Notes under the pieces: model-generated
Told to the model about the DNA's origin: nothing
The model's database searches: none
Seen by the model: only the letters and a program-made list of their open reading frames with translations
Part shown: one piece after another, positions 1,501 through 21,060 of the stretch
Layout of the letters: every line of letters starts with the position of its first letter
Position numbering within the stretch: position 1 is the stretch's first letter
Source: Cucumis sativus
Taxonomy: Eukaryota; Streptophyta; Magnoliopsida; Cucurbitales; Cucurbitaceae
Direction: 5' to 3'
DNA: 64,000 bases
Assembly: GCF_000004075.3 (NCBI RefSeq)
Contig: NC_026659.2
Location: forward strand, 5,022,001-5,086,000
Position numbers and translations under genes: made by a program

Positions 1501-1968
1501 GCTTCATTCAAGGATGAATGACAATATGCTTCCAGAATTCGGAATGTTAACGAAAGAGAAAAGACAAAAGATTGAAATCTATGCCTAATCATACGAGGAT
1601 ACGTATAACAACACTAACAAACATCATGGTTTAGAATGAGACTAAAATTCAACTCTGAGAACTCTGTGATCAAGAATTGTAGAATATAGAAGAAGAAACG
1701 CCTCTCCAAAAGAGATGAAAGCCTGGAAGTTCATAAAGCATACCTGGGGTGGTTCCGGGACACAAATTTACTTCATAACCATCCCTCTAATTGTAACAAA
1801 GGAGGCTCCAAGTATAGATTTGAAGTGCCCTATCTCCATTCTGTAAATTTAAGATTATCTGGATGGATACAGACTAATTCTAGACAAAAAAATTTAATCC
1901 TCATGGTCAAGTATATGCATTGCGACATCACTTGCCGAAAGAAGCTGAGATTTCTGTTTGAATAAACC

Positions 1969-4900
1969 CTACCCTCCAGTTCCAGCATTGTCGGATGCTA
2001 CCTTTTCAGTTGAAGAAACAGAGTTTGCTTCACTAGAAGTTAGACCACCTTTTTCACCCTGACCAAGTACACGGTTGGAATCTTGATCGGGGAAGACTTC
2101 CGATTGCAACGAGGGAGAAATGTTATTTACATGCAACCATGTGAGTTCCCACAGGCTATCTCCACCTAGAGCACTCCTCTGAACTAGCACCCCCTTAGTT
2201 TTCATAACAAGCAAGTTATTCTTGAGAAGTTCAGGCACCAACTCCTGAAGCTTCTCACTTCTTTTTCCTCTAACTTTAGCTTTTGCATACTTTTCCATTC
2301 GACTAAGAACACCAAGCCATAGCTTGCAGAAGGTTGTTAATTGAGAAAGATCCTGGAGCAACAGTAAGAACACTTTTGACAAGAGTTTCATGGCAAGGAT
2401 CAGCGTGCCTTCCATGTTTCTGTAATCTTTCTGAGAGTGTCCTTGTGCAATTTCTAATAAATCGTCAAGCATTGTGAAGATCACGAGATCAAAACACTGT
2501 AACCACAAATCATGTGGAAGGTTGATTTCATCAACACCTGTCAAGCACTTTTGCAATGACAATAGAGCCTGGTTCCTAACCTCCTCCCTTTGGTCCAAGC
2601 AAATTTTTCTCAACCCTTGCACAAGCCTCAGCCACATGTCTCCAATATCTTGTGACATTTTAATGGCTTCCTCCTCCCTTGCAGCTTCCTTACCCTCCTT
2701 AGCCCACCGTCCTAAACAATCAACAGATCCAGCCATAAGATCCAATGCACGCAAAGAGCGTTCCGCCTGTCCAACACGAGACTCAGCAAATTGCCTTGAG
2801 GCATCAATACAGAGGGTATAATTTGCTGGCAACAAGTGAGCACCGTCGGACACAATGAAGAGTAGAGCATCAAATCCTGCCTCAGAAGCCTCTGGATGTC
2901 GAGCTGTAATGGATAGTAGGGATGTTATTGTACGCCATCCTGATGGAGATCTAATATGAGAAGCATTTGCTTTCACTAGACGACTGACTTCCTGTGTAAT
3001 TTGCTCACAGTATGCATCTGCTACCCGAGCATCTAGCTTCAAGACAAGTTGTAGAGATCTCAAAAGTTCATCAGCAAGGTTCTCTTTATAAGGAAGCAAG
3101 CGCTGGCAAATCCGAAGAAGTCCGAAAACAGCTTTCTCCACCAGAGCACAGGGCATGACAGTTGACTGGACAATGTTAGATATATGATCATACACACCAG
3201 GCCAAAGAAGCACAATTCTATCTCGGTTATTCAAGGTAATGGCAATCAACAATTCCAGACAGAAGACTGCTGTATCTTCATCCTCAGGAGAGCTGTTCCC
3301 TTTCTGGGGCCGTCCTGCAGCCCATATCAGTGCTTGTGCCAGCTGTAACAGAGATTCAGCCTGTAGAAACTTGCTCTCTGTAAAAATGCTGTCAATATTG
3401 CACTTTTGAATGGTTTGAAGGGTGCGCTGATGAGCAGCAAGTTGTTGTTCGGTGGGCTGTGACCTTGGCTCCTCACTGTCAAGAGATAAGAGCTGACTGA
3501 ACCGACCCATTAGACCTGAGGATCTCTTGGGAGTTCCAATTGACTGTATATGTGCAGCAGATAAAGAACTCGTAAGAGGCTTTCCATGCCCAGCGTCAGC
3601 AGAAAGTTCTGATTCATCAGCTGCATCACTGGCCACACGAGCTGGTAAAAGACCAAGCTTGTGCAATCGCAAGATGCAATCAAGGATGTTTCTCCAACCT
3701 GTGCGAATGAAGTCACCATACCTGTTGGCTATGGTGAAAACGGTCATAGTAGCCATCCTAGCTTTTGTATCATCACCAAATGCCAGCACAGGCTCCTCAA
3801 CAGATGATGGGTTCATGAGGGTTGTGAACTTGCAGAGGGACACAACAAGATCGTCAAGTACATCTTCAAGGTGATGGCATGCAGAGATCTTTGCAACAGC
3901 TAAGAATCCATCAATACATGTTTGATAGACTTCTTCATGTTCTGCATGATCAAATACCACAGATATAGCAGCAATTGTTGGCCCTGACATTATAGCAAAC
4001 ATATCACGATCAAGATAGGCTTTAGAATCAGACACGATGAATGGAGAGGATTTCTTAGATTTATGCATCAGATCTATCCATCGGCTTGGGGTCATTTCAG
4101 GAAAACCATTTCCTTGCTCCGGAGTAGTACGAATCTCATTCTTACAGATTGAGTGATACAATTCAGAGAGGAAATCTCGTGGAAGATCATTGCCTCCATT
4201 TATGTGCCTGCTATTCCGAATGAAATCTTCTTCCGTCATCTTCTTTTTCACTTGAACATTGTGCTGATCTGTATTCAACATTATAAGTGAATAAGAAAGT
4301 AGAAGAGCAGCATCCTTATTTACAAGAATTTGAGGCGACTGTTCATAATATCTCTCAGAGAATGCCTCAAGCACCCTTTGTATCTTCTGTGATTCTCCAG
4401 GGAGTCGAAAAGTTTCCAAAAACAGCCGCAAAGCAGTATCCAAATTCATGTCCTGAAAATCAAAAGTCCAAGCAAATTCATGAAGAACCTGGACACAAAA
4501 CTCATCATGATTTCCAAGGAAGTCCCCAACCAGATTTTTATCCAAACCAGCAGTGTACCTGAAAAAGCATGCTACACTCTTGGGATCAAGTTTATCAGGC
4601 AAGAGATGGGTTCCTTGAAGGAACTCCAGTCCTTTCTTGGGATCACGATTAAAGTGATCGGCTCCAATCATCAAACGTCTCTTAATGTACTTTTTCCTTC
4701 TCACAAATGGAACCCATTGAGTAGGATCACTGTAATTTTCACATTTAACCATCCAGAAAGGAGTATATTCCTCAAGGTTCACAGGAGTATTTTCTAGTCC
4801 AGCTCCATTACCAATCCTCTCCGCCATTCCTTGTATAACGGCAATGAGACCATCCAAAGCAAGGATATGCATTGAAGACAAAGGACAATTAACTGGAAAA

Positions 4901-12472: not shown

Positions 12473-12668
12473 GATTTGGCGGTGAAGAAATATCCGAAGA
12501 AGATGAGAGATGGGTTTCAAATGGAACAAAAAAAAATTAGGGTTTCAAATAGAACGAATGAAACTAAACTGATTTGGTCGTGAAGAAATATCCGAAGAAG
12601 ATGAAGAGACATGTTTCAAATTGAACAAAAATTTCTTAAGGTTTCAAATGTAACAAACAAAGCTAAAC
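12473..12668. repeat. Tandem duplication, unit about 98 bp
   Basis: Two adjacent units begin GATTTGGCGGTGAAGAAATA (12473) and GATTTGGTCGTGAAGAAATA (12571). Both continue through TATCCGAAGAAGATGA and GTTTCAAAT blocks and end in an ACTAAACTGAT or GCTAAACCGAT motif. They are diverged, and no coding function is apparent. Confidence 0.65.
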
Positions 12669-13136
12669 CGATCGAAGTCCAAGAATGATTTGAATGTTTG
12701 CAGAGATTTTAACGTTTACAGAGATTAGATTGAGCTTCCCATTAATGACAATATGTATAATTTTATGTTTTTTTGAAAAAAATTATATTTTCATAGGGTT
12801 TAATTTGATGTGAGTTACGTGAACGATTACTTAAATATAGGTATTTTTATTTAGGATTTAAGTTTTTACCTGTGTAAGGGCATTTGAGCTATTGTCACAT
12901 CTATTTTTTTTCTTTTTCATATTTTCTGTTTTTCTATTATAATAATTTTGCTATTTTTAGGAAGTCCTAATTTTTCATTGTTCTTATAGGCTCTAAAATT
13001 AAATTGTCAATATTTTATATTTTACCCTACTTTTATCATTTACTTATATTTTCGCGTCATTTTCATGATAAATTTATTAATGACTACGTTTTTGTCATTT
13101 TTTTTAACAATGATACTATTTTTAGAATTAACTTGA

Positions 13137-13145
13137 GAGTACGGA
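13137..13145 (+). repeat. Left copy of 9-bp target-site duplication
   Basis: GAGTACGGA, directly abutting the palindromic element and repeated exactly at 14214-14222. The paralogous sequence at 17430-17439 has a single related copy (GAGAATATGA), as an empty site should. Confidence 0.85.
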
Positions 13146-14213
13146 GGATTTTTTTTAAAAATAATGTAAAATTTGAAACATATTTCAAAAATAGGGTAGT
13201 TGCAAAACTATTTTCAAAAATAGGTGTTTTGAGGTGAAGTCGTGGACGGGGTACACGACTTCCATGCAGTGGCCCCCACATACTCTATTTTTTCTTTATT
13301 TTTATATTTATACTACACTGGGCCCCACATTTTTTAATTTTCTCATTATTTATATACGTGGGTCCCACACACTTCACTTTTTCTCATTATTTATATATAC
13401 ATTTAAATTCTAAAAATATCTTTCTTTATTAAATTAATTTATTCTTTTTATTTTTTCTTTATATATATTTAAATATCACAATCTTCGATCTTCAATTTTT
13501 CTTATTAAATTCATTTTTCTAATTTAATTTAATTCTTTCTTAATCAAAATTATACATATATTTTTTTTTCCAATTTTCAATTTTTTTTAAAAAAATCTCA
13601 TATATTAACAAAACATGTTATTAAAAATATATTAAACAAATTAAAAGAGTAATAATAATAACTGTTATTATTATTACTCTTTTAATTTGTTTAATATATT
13701 TTTAATAACATGTTTTGTTAATATATGAGATTTTTTTTAAAAAAATTGAAAATTGGAAAAAAAAATATATGTATAATTTTGATTAAGAAAGAATTAAATT
13801 AAATTAGAAAAATGAATTTAATAAGAAAAATTGAAGATCGAAGATTGTGATATTTAAATATATATAAAGAAAAAAATAAAAAAAATAAATTAATTTAATA
13901 AAGAAAGATATTTTTAGAATTTAAATGTATAATATATATATTATATTATATGTGAGTATGTATATATAAATAATGAGAAAAAGTGAAGTGTGTGGGATCC
14001 ACGTATATAAATAATGAGAAAATTAAAAAATGTGGGCCCAGTGTAGTATAAATATAAAAATAAAGAAAAAATAGAGTATGTGGGGGCCACTGCATGGAAG
14101 TCGTGTACCCCGTCCACGACTTCACCTCAAAACACCTATTTTTGAAAATAGTTTTGCATCTACCCTATTTTTGAAATATGTTTCAAATTTTACATTATTT
14201 TTAAAAAAAATCC
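13146..14213. mobile_element. Mutator-like non-autonomous element, near-perfect palindrome
   Basis: The element reads GGATTTTTTTTAAAAATAAT from the left, and its right end is the reverse complement. The left arm spans 13146-13662 (517 bp) and the right arm 13664-14213 (550 bp), with one central base at 13663. The arms match base for base apart from scattered substitutions and one ~33-bp AT-rich insertion in the right arm near 13929-13965. Flanking 9-bp direct repeats GAGTACGGA (13137-13145 and 14214-14222) are the size of Mutator-superfamily target duplications. No transposase is encoded; two mirror-image 65-codon frames are by-products of the palindrome. Each arm contains a nested short stem, GAAGTCGTG paired with CACGACTTC. 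It ends about 245 bp upstream of the first mTERF start. Confidence 0.85.
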
Positions 14214-14222
14214 GAGTACGGA
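14214..14222 (+). repeat. Right copy of 9-bp target-site duplication
   Basis: GAGTACGGA, identical to 13137-13145 and directly after the right terminus AAAAAAAATCC of the palindrome. Confidence 0.85.
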
Positions 14223-14408
14223 AGTTATTTGTAAGTAAAATAAAATATATTTCCAGTAAAAAGAAATTAAGTTAATTATTATTTTTTAATTATCGATAAC
14301 AATTCCTCATTTCTTTGAAAGTTAAATAAAAATGATTATTTAACTAAATAATATATAATAAATAACAAATAATAATCTCTGTGGGGTGGGGATGTTCGCG
14401 GAGCTCCA

Positions 14409-14417
14409 AAACCCTAA
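14409..14417 (+). promoter_or_regulatory. Telo-box upstream of mTERF copy A
   Basis: AAACCCTAA, 40 bp before the start codon. Telo-boxes are common near the transcription start of plant genes for ribosome, translation and organelle-expression functions. The same motif is conserved in the tandem paralogue at 17614-17622. Confidence 0.45.
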
Positions 14418-14457
14418 CCAAAGCCCTTTCTTCATTTTCTTCCTTCCAAATCCCAAA

Positions 14458-15579
14458 ATGTCCAAAATTTCCTCCACATTTCTTCTACATTTCATCCATA
14501 AACGTTTTCTCACTGCCATTTCTACTCCTACATTGCCTTTACCCTCTGTTTCTACCATCCAATTCCTCACTAATTCATGTGCCCTTTCTTCAGGATCTCC
14601 TACCTCCGCCGGTCGAAAGCTCCAATTCGATGAAAAAAACATCCAGCAGTACGAAGCCATTATCGGTTTCTTCAGATCACATGGATTCGAGAATCCACAG
14701 ATCGCCAATTTGGTCTCGAGGCACCCTTCTATACTTCAATCCAGAGTATCCACCAATCTGAACCCTAAATTTGAGTTCCTCCAGGAAATGGGGTTCGTCG
14801 GTCCTTTACTTTCTAAGCTAATTCTATCAAACCCTTGGCTTCTTTTCAGGAGCTTAGATTCTCATTTGAAACCATCGTTTTCTTTCTGGAAGAATAATCT
14901 TGAATCGGTTGAACAAGTAACTGCTGCTATTTCTCGTTCTTCGTGGCTTCTAACTTCTGATTTTAAGGGTATCTTAAAATCTAACATTGATTTATTGGTC
15001 AGTGAAGGAGTATCTTCTAGGGCTATAGCGACATTGATTGTAGTGCAGCCTAGAACTATAATGCGAACAGTTGATAGAATGATTCAATTAGTGAAAACGG
15101 TTAAAGAATTGGGCTTTGAACCAAAAGCTCGTACGTTTGTTCATGCACTTAGAGTAAGGGGTTCAATGAGTGATTCAATTTGGAAGAAGAAAATAAATGT
15201 TTTGAAGAGTTTAGGATGGTCTGAGAAGGAGATTTTTGCAGCATTTAAGAAATTTCCACTTTATTTAACTTGTTCAGAGAAGAAAATGAGGGATGTTGCA
15301 GATTTCTGTTTCAACACTGCCAAGTTGGATGCAGGAACTCTAATTACTTACCCTGTGTTATTCAAGTTGTCAGTCGACAAGCGGCTCCTACCGATGTACA
15401 AAGTTCTTGAGGTTTTGAAGGTGAAAAATCTTCTTAAGAACAAAAAGATCGCTCGGGTGTTTGTACAAGGGGAGAGAGAATTTGTGGAGAAATATATTGT
15501 TAGGCATTTGGATGAAATCCCATATCTGATGGACATATACCGGGGCAATGTCACAGCCGAAACCAAATCTGTTGTATAG
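14458..15579 (+). CDS. mTERF-family protein, tandem copy A
   Basis: A single uninterrupted frame of 373 codons. The start is placed at MSKISSTF, because this Met and the frame after it are shared with copy B, whereas the in-frame upstream extensions differ. The N-terminus is rich in Ser, Phe and basic residues with few acids, as in a mitochondrial or plastid targeting peptide. From about residue 50 onward come degenerate ~30-residue helical mTERF repeats with landmarks such as HPSILQS, NLNPKFEFL and YPVLFKLSV. Family members bind organellar nucleic acid and affect transcription termination, splicing or RNA processing; the target of this one cannot be read from sequence. No intron, frameshift or internal stop is seen. 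The Mutator-like palindrome lies just upstream and could affect expression. Confidence 0.9.
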   Translation: MSKISSTFLLHFIHKRFLTAISTPTLPLPSVSTIQFLTNSCALSSGSPTSAGRKLQFDEKNIQQYEAIIGFFRSHGFENPQIANLVSRHPSILQSRVSTNLNPKFEFLQEMGFVGPLLSKLILSNPWLLFRSLDSHLKPSFSFWKNNLESVEQVTAAISRSSWLLTSDFKGILKSNIDLLVSEGVSSRAIATLIVVQPRTIMRTVDRMIQLVKTVKELGFEPKARTFVHALRVRGSMSDSIWKKKINVLKSLGWSEKEIFAAFKKFPLYLTCSEKKMRDVADFCFNTAKLDAGTLITYPVLFKLSVDKRLLPMYKVLEVLKVKNLLKNKKIARVFVQGEREFVEKYIVRHLDEIPYLMDIYRGNVTAETKSVV

Positions 15580-17240
15580 GATTGTAAAGTTGTAAGTTAA
15601 CAATGTTCTTATAGTTTAAATTTGAGCATCATGGTGTGTGTTCAAAGGGGAGAGCACTTTTGTTGCTATTAAGCCTGCCGTTTCTTCTTGAGCTTATCAA
15701 GATCTTTCTCTCTGTGTTTTCAGGTGGGAGAGTTGTGATGATTTTGCATCTAAATTAAGGTAGTTTGTTAGGTAAATCCATTTGGTGTATATTTGATCAT
15801 AGACATGTTAATCTTGAAATTTGAGGCTGGAGGCCTTTTTGTTTTTCCCTTCCTAATCTTCTACTCTTTCCTTGAACTTTTGTTAGGTTTGTAGACTAAT
15901 TTTGAATCCAATAATGTTGAAATAGAGGTGATTTTTTTCATTCATATTATGAGATGAGAGACATTAGACTTTTTGAATATTCTGACTTGGACTCTAATTC
16001 TTTTGCTATTCCAAATAACCATATTATTATAAGATTTGGGTAAATGACAAACATTCTGATGAAACTCATTTTTATTTAAACCGTTTGAATCATCATAGGC
16101 AAGATTCATCAAATTCTCCCAAGTCCATTCAAGTGTTTTTTGGGTAAATTTTGGGTTTGAATTGAATAAGCTGGCCACAGCTATATCCACTATCATAATT
16201 CTTTTTAGTTTTCATTTTAATTTTAGTATTGTAATAATTCAAAATAATGATATAAATTTTATTTTGTTAATATTAGCATTGTATTACTTGGTGAGTGTAT
16301 ATATATATATATAACCTAAATTAATATTTTTACATTTTAATCTAATTTAATCTAACCTAAATTATATAATCAACAATTTATCAACCAATGACTAATAATG
16401 GAATGTAACATAAAACATGATTTTCTCATACATTTGAACATTTTTCTAAAATAAAAAATAATGTAAAGGTAGAAACTAAGGTAAAAAATGAGTTGAGATA
16501 GAACTATTGACAAAAATACGATAATTTTGAACCCACGACTTAGTTTTTATTATTAATATATATAAATAATAAAAAATAAGATTTAGTTTATACATCCACT
16601 TTATTTTAGAAAAAAGTTTTATAGATTGATAACGTGAACTAAAAAATAATGAAAAAATAGTAAAACCGTTTTTTTTCAAAAATGGAAAAAATAATACAAA
16701 ATACAATAAATAAGAATTTGTGAGAACCTAAAATACTCATATATACACAGAATGTGAATTACTCTAAAATAAATCGTTATTACACTTCAATAACTTCATA
16801 AACACAATTACACATACACTATTATTTAATCAAAATTCAACCAGCCTTCATCTCCACCTTCCACCCTTCTCTTTTCAAGTCCAGATTGGGATTACATTTT
16901 ATTTTCTTCAATCGAGTAAATCTTAAAATAACATCTTGAAGCATAAAACTCTAATTTTCATCATGTATTTACATTTGAAGTATCAATCTCATCTTCAACT
17001 CCATCATGCATTTTCAAGAAGAACAATATAAACAAATTACAGTCTCATAGTCTCATTTGAAGCACGCAAACACTCATCTTCATTTACCATCTTTCATCTT
17101 CTTTGATCTTCAAGTCTATAGCATGCAATGCAATCTTAATTAAGTACATAGTAACATCTTCATTTAAATAAACTATGTTGCAAATGTTATTCTATCATTA
17201 CTGATAAATCATTGGACTTTGCTACAATTACAAATTTTTA
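15580..17240. other. Spacer between the two mTERF copies
   Basis: About 1.6 kb that begins with the 3' flank of copy A; the start of this flank is also similar after copy B. No conserved open frame is seen. Short TA runs occur near 16295-16315. The upstream homology to copy A begins near 17240. Confidence 0.55.
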
Positions 17241-17613
17241 ACATTGTTGTTATTTACTTAATTATTATTTCTAAAATTAGGATCCATTATAATTATCCTA
17301 AAATTGATAAATCGTCCATATTTTCACTTTGTCCCTGTCATTTGTTTATATTCTCACATCAGAATAAATTTATTAATGACCATATTTTCGTCATTTTTTA
17401 AAACAATGATTTAATTTTATAATTAACTCGAGAATATGAATGTGATTTGTAAGTAAAATAAATAAAGTATTTCCTAATAGGAATAAATAAAGAGAAATTA
17501 AGTTAATTAAATTTATTTAATTATCCTTAAACAATTACTCAATTATTTGAAATCATTCATAATTAGTTTTCTATGGGTTCATCTCAGTGGGGATGTTCGC
17601 TTCGTGGAGCTCA

Positions 17614-17622
17614 AAACCCTAA
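17614..17622 (+). promoter_or_regulatory. Telo-box upstream of mTERF copy B
   Basis: AAACCCTAA, immediately followed by a second AAACCCT, 36 bp before the start codon and at the position matching the copy A motif. Conservation in both paralogues supports a role in expression, though none is shown. Confidence 0.45.
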
Positions 17623-17657
17623 ACCCTTTCTTCATTTTCTTCATTTCAAATCTCAAA

Positions 17658-18779
17658 ATGTCCAAAATTTCCTCCACATTTCTTCTACATTTCATCTTTA
17701 AACGACTTCTCAATACCATTTCTACTTCTACATTGCCTTTACCCTCCGTTTCTACCATCCAATTCCTCACTAATTCATGTGCCCTTTCTTCGGGATCTAC
17801 TACCTCCGCCGGTCGAAAGCTCCAATTCGATGAAAAAAACATCCAGCAGTACGAAGCCATTATCGGTTTCTTGAAATCACATGGGTTCGAGAATCCACAG
17901 ATCGCGAATTTGGTCTCGAGGCGACCTTCGATCCTTCAATCCAGAGTATCCACCAATCTGAACCCTAAATTTGGGTTCCTCCAGGAAATCGGGTTCGTCG
18001 GTCCTTTACTTCCTAAGTTAATTCTATCAAACCCTACGCTCCTTTTCAGGAGCTTAGATTCTCATTTGAAACCATCATTTTTTTTTTTGAAGGAAATTCT
18101 TGAATCGGATGAACGAGTAACTACTGCTGTTTGTCGTTTTCCGAGGCTTCTAACTTATGATTTTAAGGGTGTTATAAAAAGTAACGTTGATTTTTTGGTC
18201 AGTGAAGGAATGCCTTCTAGGAATATAGCCAACATGATTGCAATGCAGCCTATTACTATTTTGCAAAAGGCTGATAGAATGATTCGAGTAGTGAAAACGG
18301 TGAAAGAATTAGGCATTGAACCAAAGGGTCCCATGTTTGTTTATGCGGTTTTATCAAGGAGTTCAATGAGTGATTCAACTTGGAAGAATAAAGTAAATGT
18401 TATGAAGAGTTTAGGATGGTCTGAGAATGAGATTCTGACAGCATTTAAGAGATATCCACGTTATTTAACTTGTTCAGAGGAGAAAATGAGGGAAGTTGCA
18501 GATTTCTGTTTCAACACTGCTAAGTTTGATCCAGGAACTGTAATTACTTACCCTATGTTCTTCATGTGTTCGGTCGAGAAGCGGCTCCAACCGAGGTACA
18601 AAGTTATTGAGGTTTTGAAAGTGAAGAATCTTCTTAAGAACAAAAAGATTGCTTGGTTGCTTTTACAAGGGGAGAGAAACTTTGTGGAGAAATGCGTTGT
18701 TAAGCATTTGGATGAAATCCCAAATCTGATGGACATTTACCGGGGCATTGTTGCAGCCGAGACCAAATGTGTTGTATAG
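17658..18779 (+). CDS. mTERF-family protein, tandem copy B
   Basis: An intronless frame of 373 codons, the same length as copy A, 3200 bp downstream in the same orientation and closely similar throughout. The start at MSKISSTF is chosen by comparison with copy A. The presumed targeting peptide is nearly unchanged, while substitutions cluster in the mTERF repeats: RRPSILQS for RHPSILQS, and many changes between residues 150 and 260. This could reflect relaxed or diversifying selection on the nucleic-acid-binding surface. The frame is intact, so both copies are probably functional. Upstream sequence from about 17240 aligns with both flanks of the palindromic element near copy A and lacks the element. 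Confidence 0.9.
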   Translation: MSKISSTFLLHFIFKRLLNTISTSTLPLPSVSTIQFLTNSCALSSGSTTSAGRKLQFDEKNIQQYEAIIGFLKSHGFENPQIANLVSRRPSILQSRVSTNLNPKFGFLQEIGFVGPLLPKLILSNPTLLFRSLDSHLKPSFFFLKEILESDERVTTAVCRFPRLLTYDFKGVIKSNVDFLVSEGMPSRNIANMIAMQPITILQKADRMIRVVKTVKELGIEPKGPMFVYAVLSRSSMSDSTWKNKVNVMKSLGWSENEILTAFKRYPRYLTCSEEKMREVADFCFNTAKFDPGTVITYPMFFMCSVEKRLQPRYKVIEVLKVKNLLKNKKIAWLLLQGERNFVEKCVVKHLDEIPNLMDIYRGIVAAETKCVV

Positions 18780-21060
18780 GATTGGTAAGTTGTAAGTTAA
18801 GAATCTGTCTTATAGTTTAAATTTGAGTATCGTCATCTTCAAAGGGGACAGCATTTTTGTTCTTCTGTTTCAAAGAAAACTGATTCTTCAGCTTTCCAAG
18901 CTGTAAGTTGTCATAGTTACCTTATAGTGTATTTTTCCAATGAATTTTTTTTGGTCAAGTATGCTATATTGCTCGTACACTTTATTTGTTTATATATAAT
19001 GGCATAACATTATAACAAATGGAAAGAAAATATACTTGATTTTAGAAAATAAAAAATAAATGGTTAACAAATGGGAACGGAACCTACTTTCTCATATTCA
19101 CCTAGTTAAAACTAAATGGGTTCTTAAAATTAAGAAGAAAGATTAAAAAGCTGTATTATTTCGAGTTGCTCCATTCCTAGGCTTGGTTATAGGATAATTC
19201 ATATATTCAATTTATAATTCATATATTCAAAATACATGAAATTGAACAATGACAAATATATTTGGAAAATTTTGGGGTTTGTTATATTGTAAATAATTTA
19301 TTAACAATATCGATAATTATTATTAAGATACACAATAAATATTTTTAATAACAATATGAAATTACATTTTAGATTAAATTCCTTAAATTCAACACAAATT
19401 AGGTTTATACGAATCTTGAAGATTTAATAGAATCTATTCAGCAACTGATAGAAGACTTTGAAGGGATCAAGAGTTTCAAGAATATCTTTCGGCTCTAAAG
19501 AGTTACAAGAGTGATAACATTTTGAATGTCTCCACAAATTGTAGAAGATATGAAATAACTGCAGAAATTATGTGAAGCTTTGATGATGATATGTGTTATT
19601 TTTCGAGTTTTAAGAGAAAAATAGAATTTTGATCGATTTTAACCATGATTGAGAAATTTGATTCAATTATAAGGTATTTGTTGTTATTTATTTAATTATA
19701 GGGTATTTGTTATTAATTAAATAATTATACTTAGGATTGAAGCTTTTGATTTAACTAGGACATTTAATACACTATTTCAACCATTTTTTTTTCATATTAT
19801 TTTGTTTTTCTATTTTATGAATTTAAATAAAAAATTGCCGTAAATAAAAAATAAACCTTATATTGTGCTATCTTTCTCGTCAATCCATTATTATTTATAG
19901 AGTTTTGTCTGAAGTGAGTATATCTCGGTTGGTCTATAGATCTGGGCCTTGTCTCAATAGTATTTGGGCCACAAATAGGCATATTACTCCATTGAACTTG
20001 GGCCCAGGCATTAAATCCAAAGTCAAAACTATTTTAGCGTGAATAAAATTTGACAAATTTGATTGTATTTATAAATTTTGTTTAAATGTTGGTACGTACT
20101 TAATTATTATTATGAATCTAATTATTGAATTTGTAGTTATTTCGTTATTATATTTAATGATAATGACGAAGATACACGACAATATTAGAATTGACCAACT
20201 TCTCTTTTCACTTTTTAGGGGACACATAAACATTTTTAGTAAGTCCAAAATTGGATGTTTATAACTTCATCGTTAGCTTAAAAAATGAATGATCTAAAAT
20301 TTAGAATTTAGAATTTGGTTAGTTGTACTTAGATAGTTGTAAGCATTTATGTCTCTACATAAATGAACATCGTAAGTTTTATTGACGTCTACTTAGTGTT
20401 TATACTCAGTAGTACTAATATCGTTTTTACTAGTACACATACCATATATGCATATATCTATAAGTTTGAGGACATTTTTTGAATTTGCATTGAGTGGGGG
20501 ATTTCTTATTTGAGTTTGTTTGAGTTATTTATATTTGGTAAGATTTTGTTCATTGTTTTTTTAAATATAGATTAGAGTGATAAAATAATATAACCTATTA
20601 GTTACAAATTTGAAAAAATCAGTATCTCTATTGACCATAAAACGAACCGTTTTGAAAAATTCATAGATACAAATCTAGAAATTTAAGGATTAAATTTGTA
20701 ATTTAACTCGATTTTAAATTTAACTAATGCATGCCATCATTTTATTTTTTGAGTTAAAAATACTTTATTTTTCTTGAGCTATAGTTGGCAACAATTTAGA
20801 GCATTAAAGCGAGCTTAGCTCAACGTAATAGACATCACCTCCTATCTAGAGGCAAGATGTTCAAATCTTCCGACCTCCAACTGTAAATGAGAAAATAGGA
20901 TAGTGACTTTTAATTTAGTTTGTTATTTTAAAAAATGCTCCTTATAACTTTTATATTTTTAAAAATGAAAAGAAAATTAGTGACCCATCATCTTAGCATT
21001 TAGAAAGTTTTGGATAAAAATAAAAACTAAATCCAATTCCCAAGTAATAACATAGTAATA
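18780..21060. other. Intergenic, mostly featureless AT-rich DNA
   Basis: No conserved reading frame. The only structured element recognised is the SINE-like sequence near 20808-20895. The last ~100 bp become CT-rich toward the zinc-finger gene. Confidence 0.5.
20808..20895 (+). mobile_element. tRNA-derived SINE-like sequence
   Basis: An A-box-like GCTTAGCTCAACGTAATAG (20813-20831) and a B-box-like GATGTTCAAATCTTCC (20856-20871) are spaced as in the internal RNA polymerase III promoter of tRNA-related SINEs. The downstream tail and target duplications are not clear, so the copy is old or partial. It cannot be a functional tRNA gene because the cloverleaf arms do not close. Confidence 0.5.

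Follow-up and report, generated by a model that had tools for sequence, protein, structure and literature searches.

What is the 1068-bp stretch that lies upstream of one of two tandem mTERF genes and folds back on itself along almost its whole length, and how did it come by this form? We addressed this in a window of 64,000 nucleotides (the whole stretch of DNA analyzed, G000:C5:5022001–5086000), with the genome searched for related sequences amounting to 226.6 Mb in 88 contigs. The locus is real, well delimited, and young, and is a spacerless palindromic derivative of a family of non-autonomous Mutator-like elements (MULEs). In our judgment, it is probably a young MULE from a spacer-bearing family that inserted after the duplication of the mTERF gene, was mobilized in trans, and turned into a palindrome via the copying of one arm.

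The element occupies positions 13146–14213 (no strand assigned), beginning with GGATTTTT and ending with AAAAATCC, termini that are common to its siblings. It is made up of a left arm of 517 bp (13146–13662, plus strand), a single central base (13663), where the full-length siblings have a spacer of ~410–455 bp, and a right arm of 550 bp (13664–14213, minus strand). Recomputation bore out the near-perfect inverted repeat described in the initial annotation, as well as the exact 9-bp repeats GAGTACGGA on either side (13137–13145 and 14214–14222). Compared to the siblings, the right arm is full-length, while the left arm is without 33 bp that are present in both the right arm and the sibling consensus. 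Between the two arms there are 6 substitutions over 516 aligned sites and three indels, namely the 33-bp gap, which is confined to the left arm and flanked by short direct repeats, and two 1-bp indels recognized from the block offsets; hence, the earlier claim of a single ~33-bp indel stands for the gap itself but not for its being the only one. A nearly palindromic subterminal motif, GTCGTGGACGGGGTACACGACTTC, is found in the left arm at 13239–13262 (G000:C5:5035239–5035262, plus strand), with its right-arm copy at 14097–14120 (G000:C5:5036097–5036120, minus strand). The element contains no open reading frame of 100 or more amino acids, the matches listed from a genome profile search include none to PF10551 in the window, and an Rfam search of 12500–18800 returned 0 matches at gathering scores.

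With 1067 of its 1068 bases within the arms, the inverted repeats span practically the entire element, which thus acts as a fold-back. We do not file it as a classical Foldback element because its arms are without modular short direct repeats: in the 20 of the 26 repeat families listed from which this result is drawn, the arms contain a few imperfect, mostly AT-rich repeats that are ~74–86% alike. Arms of that modular make characterize classical Foldback elements, an instance being the composite repeats of Tm1 in the excerpts of PMC3169594 used here.

MULEs typically display target-site duplications of 8–11 bp, usually 9, and long terminal inverted repeats, often greater than 100 bp. The window copy has a duplication that is exact in 9 of 9 bases and terminal inverted repeats of 517 and 550 bp, and the same genome contains a related element with matching ends and a MULE/MuDR transposase (L081 198–7180). 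Its identity as a MULE, as originally proposed on the basis of the sequence, is almost certain.

The initial annotation had called for a genome search with the termini and named family ends lying outside 13146–14213 as grounds for rejecting its reading. Our search recovered both related elements and the transposase-bearing relative L081, and the siblings terminate at the same bases as the window copy. With up to 3 mismatches allowed, the first 54 bases of the element were located 65 times in the genome (33 times in forward and 32 times in reverse orientation), compared to 0 for the reversed-pattern control, which excludes chance; a search with the left arm likewise gave at least 65 matches (best 40 of 490 candidates scored). 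The GTCGTGGACGGGGTACACGACTTC motif (24 bases, up to 3 mismatches) is found at 181 genomic sites per strand, again with 0 in the reversed control. Pairing of the 65 ends yielded 26 elements and left 13 ends unpaired. Among the paired elements, 21 have lengths of 1456–1539 bp and 5 of 1008–1217 bp, the latter being the window copy, L039, L046, L050, and L089. The usual copy has the same termini as the window element and consists of an arm of ~549 bp, a spacer of ~410–455 bp, and an inverted arm of ~549 bp, a plan fully present in 16 of the 20 loci first fetched. The palindrome is, thus, not the usual form of the family; the long form with a spacer is the rule. The spacer of the siblings contains a second, ~80% similar copy of arm positions 348–547, in which it can be likened to MULEs with multiple terminal repeats, whose inner part has extra copies of the terminal repeat; a palindromic spacerless derivative was not found in the excerpts of PMC3310237 that describe them.

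An exact target-site duplication was found in 18 of the 19 siblings with both ends, one of these being of 10 bp; 16 of the 19 were scored as exact, with L037 and L046 added by eye (one boundary G assigned to the element). Inspection of the flanks showed exact duplications in L089, L090, and L091 too. The family is recently amplified in this genome. The mean arm divergence is 1.19% within an element as against 1.24–1.40% between elements, and strong homogenization of arms as a general habit of the family was not seen in this comparison. In the underlying alignment, the right arm of L046 is poorly aligned (68–70 mismatches); this copy was excluded from the private-change and diagnostic-site counts on 18 siblings given below and included in the 25-element substitution comparison. 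L040, which is without a left end, was excluded from the duplication, consensus, arm-divergence, private-change, diagnostic-site, and substitution counts; L083 and L084 stand outside the target-duplication count, and the truncated copies L082 and L085 outside all arm counts. In the portions of the open-access literature consulted, we found no description of this family. Two individual copies deserve mention. L089 (65–1183; G000:C2:19073414–19074532) is another copy with almost no spacer; it forms an inverted repeat with itself over 1119 bp at 92%, and its central filler overlaps a 22-bp stretch that matches arm sequence exactly, as expected from template switching. L031 (G000:C5:17013291–17014797) has perfect ends with no recognizable target-site duplication and may have arisen through recombination between copies.

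The transposase-bearing relative is a MULE of 6983 bp (L081 198–7180 = G000:C3:18364797–18371779) with the 9-bp TATATATAA, a low-complexity sequence, on each side. Its MULE transposase match at C3:18368259 is flanked by two exact GTCGTGGACGGGGTACACGACTTC sites, and its 606-aa frame matches MULE (PF10551, E = 4.3e-20), DBD_Tnp_Mut, and SWIM. The first 19 bases of this element are identical to those of the window element; the ends of the two are 81% alike over 119 bp and, at the other side, 75% over 122 bp, and they share an identical block of 30 bp. The transposase frame has full-length matches at 93–100% in at least 7 places, including itself (best 40 of 51 candidates scored), and the 119-bp end has at least 42 genomic matches (best 40 of 307 candidates scored). 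Judging from the shared ends, the most likely mobilizer of the family in trans is an L081-type MULE, which would cut and paste its non-autonomous relatives at these ends. Both ends of L081 carry multiple occurrences of the GTCGTGGACGGGGTACACGACTTC motif, which may be a binding site for the transposase.

L081 also has a 285-aa frame with the plant mobile domain (PMD) (1711–2568, minus strand; E = 9.8e-61) directly downstream of the transposase frame and on the same strand. The excerpts of PMC5418596 consulted describe the capture of PMD by MULEs in grasses and Amborella, and the L081 frame may be a further such case, in a cucurbit-like genome. In size and repeat length, L081 resembles CsMULE (GenBank MG558001) from the cucumber CsMYB60 gene: the accessible part of PMC6305189 gives CsMULE a length of 6994 bp, terminal repeats of 117 and 115 bp, and duplications of 9 bp, and attributes to it the reduced expression of the host gene, perhaps through methylation. 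A different partner, a MULE that is abundant and has an intact ~810-aa frame, was considered and set aside after a stretch of 9901 bases around one copy was examined (L092, G000:C3:39180600–39190500; intact 806-aa transposase frame, with many places in the genome equaling its transposase score). This stretch, which may not include both ends of that MULE, contains neither the GTCGTGGACGGGGTACACGACTTC motif nor a match to the ends of the family, and at a threshold of E 1e-5 it shows no inverted repeat. A neighboring frame in it resembles what we take to be an Ulp1-type protease.

Among described elements, the closest anatomy that we found is that of MuTAnT from Medicago truncatula, as presented in the excerpts of PMC4486113: a non-autonomous MULE with a 292-bp form made up of two almost identical 144-bp arms, 9-nt duplications, a larger transposase-bearing relative, and a preference for TA microsatellites, 90% of its members being 200–300 bp long. 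The two are alike as dicot non-autonomous MULEs with folding-back arms, 9-nt duplications, and a relative with a transposase, whereas MuTAnT differs in its much shorter arms and TA preference, and the palindrome is the exception in the window family. The same excerpts class foldback MULEs such as FARE from Arabidopsis, which have long inverted repeats, as MULEs; FARE is also named in the references of PMC3169594, in the part seen. FARE1 has long palindromic repeats at both ends according to PMC4486113 (again in part), in contrast to the window element, which is one palindrome throughout and is without an array of short units. Thus, the detail of the window element is new, while its kind, the fold-back MULE, is known.

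When did this copy insert? The element ends 244 bp before the probable start codon (ATG at 14458) of mTERF copy A, whose frame occupies 14386–15579 on the plus strand (mTERF, PF02536, E = 3.8e-38); mTERF copy B lies downstream at 17547–18779 (plus strand) and is 94% alike over 300 nt. The left flank (13063–13122) aligns with 17359–17418 upstream of copy B at 82% of 60 nt, the right flank (14214–14244) with 17432–17462 at 84% of 31 nt, and a MAFFT alignment showed the copy B paralogue to be continuous across the target. The spacing differs between the paralogues by 1078 as against the expected 1068 + 9 = 1077, i.e., by one extra base. Hence, the natural empty site that had been recognized upstream of copy B is upheld, at about 17432–17440. 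The earlier statement that the paralogue carries GAGAATATGA at the target is right as to the site but not as to the exact 9-mer: aligned base for base, the counterpart of the duplicated 9-mer is GAATATGAA (17432–17440, no strand assigned), which differs from that 9-mer in 3 of 9 bases and is overlapped by GAGAATATGA.

The best-aligned flank blocks of the two mTERF copies are 16–18% diverged, whereas the window arms are only 5 (left) and 8 (right) substitutions away from the sibling consensus. This argues for insertion after the tandem duplication, which is the simple reading, and agrees with the recent origin first offered, next to repair by gene conversion, as the meaning of the near-identity of the arms; a non-autonomous MULE would then have inserted upstream of mTERF copy A once the pair already existed. 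The other reading first offered, in which the element predates the duplication and yet was never in copy B, contradicts itself, unless a precise loss is assumed. The left flank (13004–13132) is in itself a dispersed repeat with 12 matches in the genome, including itself and the mTERF copy B site; the other 10 are 70–80% alike, and 8 of them end at 13131–13134, just ahead of the target duplication.

We then come to the palindromic form. Set against a consensus built from 18 full siblings, the window copy is without the entire spacer and joins its arms almost exactly where the arm–arm homology of the siblings stops, with a C and a G at the center matched across the arms (arm position 548 or 549, by alignment). 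An exact-match pattern that placed the ends of the two arms no more than 30 bases apart, which copies with altered arm ends would escape, found the window copy alone. First, all 5 substitutions of its left arm are present in its right arm too, compared to 28 of 79 for the 20 full-length siblings summed; L046 shares 4 of 5, with a left arm that is not intact. Among these five changes, two are private (arm positions 150 and 549), being absent from all 24 other elements compared, one occurs in a single further element, and the remaining two are widespread, in 11 and 17 others. Private changes of this kind, present in both arms, were found in 1 of the 18 full siblings, which has one; in another alignment, the count is 2 for the window copy, 2 for the divergent L090, and 0 for the remaining 23 elements. 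Second, at the three sites with the largest left/right contrast among the siblings, both window arms show the commoner right-arm state; none of these sites is fixed on both sides, and one is weak, because the gap that the window arms show there is likewise the most frequent state among sibling left arms (9 of 18). Third, the whole-arm distances slightly favor the right-arm type (10 to 6 for the left window arm and 9 to 8 for the right), in a test that assigned 27 of 36 sibling arms to their true side.

The sharing of five out of five left-arm changes, set against 28 of 79 in the siblings, gives modest support to the copying of one arm onto the other as the probable event, in place of a mere deletion of the spacer. 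The loss of the spacer would have come about through aborted gap repair or template switching, with the inner parts of both arms copied from one arm and the outermost bases retained. The template would probably have been of the right-hand type, and on this specific form of copying, our opinion is evenly divided. Since site 55 differs between the window arms (the A of the right arm is found in 13 other elements), the outermost part of the arm may have escaped copying or changed again. A subsequent 33-bp deletion between short direct repeats in the left arm would have broken the symmetry. Our confidence in this overall account is lowered by the weakness of one of the three diagnostic sites and by the wide occurrence in the family of two of the five changes.

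A rival account, in which the spacer was simply deleted between short AT-rich repeats that terminate the arms and ordinary gene conversion kept or restored the likeness of the arms, is possible but on balance rather unlikely. AAT/ATT triplets at the arm ends permit slipped joining, the whole-arm distances give no clear assignment of both window arms to the right-arm type, and L089 is nearly spacerless, its aligned arms being 47 bases apart, yet its arms share few changes (3 of 14 and 7), so the spacer can be lost by another route. Yet, deletion alone should leave one left-type and one right-type arm, whereas all five left-arm changes are shared, two of them private, and the central C and G agree on both sides. 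An assembly artefact, in which the true locus has a spacer omitted by the assembler, is improbable even though long palindromes are difficult to assemble: the arms are kept distinct by the 6 substitutions and the 33-bp gap, the symmetry ends exactly at the transposon termini with the 9-bp duplication intact, unlike in a fold-back read, and both arms carry two changes seen in none of the 24 other elements. We likewise give very little credence to the spacerless palindrome being ancestral to the family, with the 1.5-kb copies representing a later gain of the spacer. The arm junction does lie almost exactly at the limit of sibling arm homology, and the ~80% copy of arm positions 348–547 makes the long form itself a product of duplication; however, the long copies prevail (21 of 26), the other short copies break elsewhere, and the two changes present in both window arms but absent from the 24 others mean that those elements do not descend from the window copy in its present state. 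It was on account of these private changes that this possibility was set aside. The locus offers a clean case of a spacer-bearing MULE turning into a near-perfect palindrome, for which a natural empty site and sibling copies are both available, and the comparison with siblings provides a way to separate simple deletion from one-arm copying.

The nearest precedent for one end being copied onto the other is Mu killer of maize, which the excerpts of PMC3440606 describe as a deleted, partly duplicated Mutator element with both terminal repeats from the same end; it has inverted partial copies of the transposase gene, is proposed to form a hairpin RNA, and silences MuDR. A one-end origin of the window element would be in line with the right-arm state at 3 of 3 sites (one weak) and the 5 of 5 shared changes, the whole-arm distances being nearly equal. 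Mu killer carries part of the transposase gene according to these excerpts, whereas the window element is gene-free and, having no frame of 100 aa or more and none of the listed PF10551 matches, shows no inverted transposase gene fragment. That the spacerless copy, formed by aborted repair beside a promoter, is a natural silencing trigger for its own family, with its 21–24-nt RNAs directing methylation, strikes us as a highly unlikely proposition. Were it true, RNAs from the 30-bp block shared with the L081 MULE would guide the methylation, with the autonomous copies and mTERF copy A as its targets.

A transcript across the element is predicted to fold into a hairpin: the RNA minimum free energy of the element is −745.7, compared to −159 to −180 for 5 mononucleotide shuffles, which preserve base composition only. 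Read-through transcription would yield an RNA hairpin of ~0.5 kb, and the palindrome would then be a plausible source of siRNAs, as suggested earlier. Mu killer, with its proposed hairpin from a rearranged Mutator element, and CsMULE, with its link to reduced expression of a cucumber gene, serve as precedents. Lying less than 250 bp from a gene with an element-free tandem twin, the element constitutes a natural test of whether a hairpin leads to small RNAs and methylation at a promoter.
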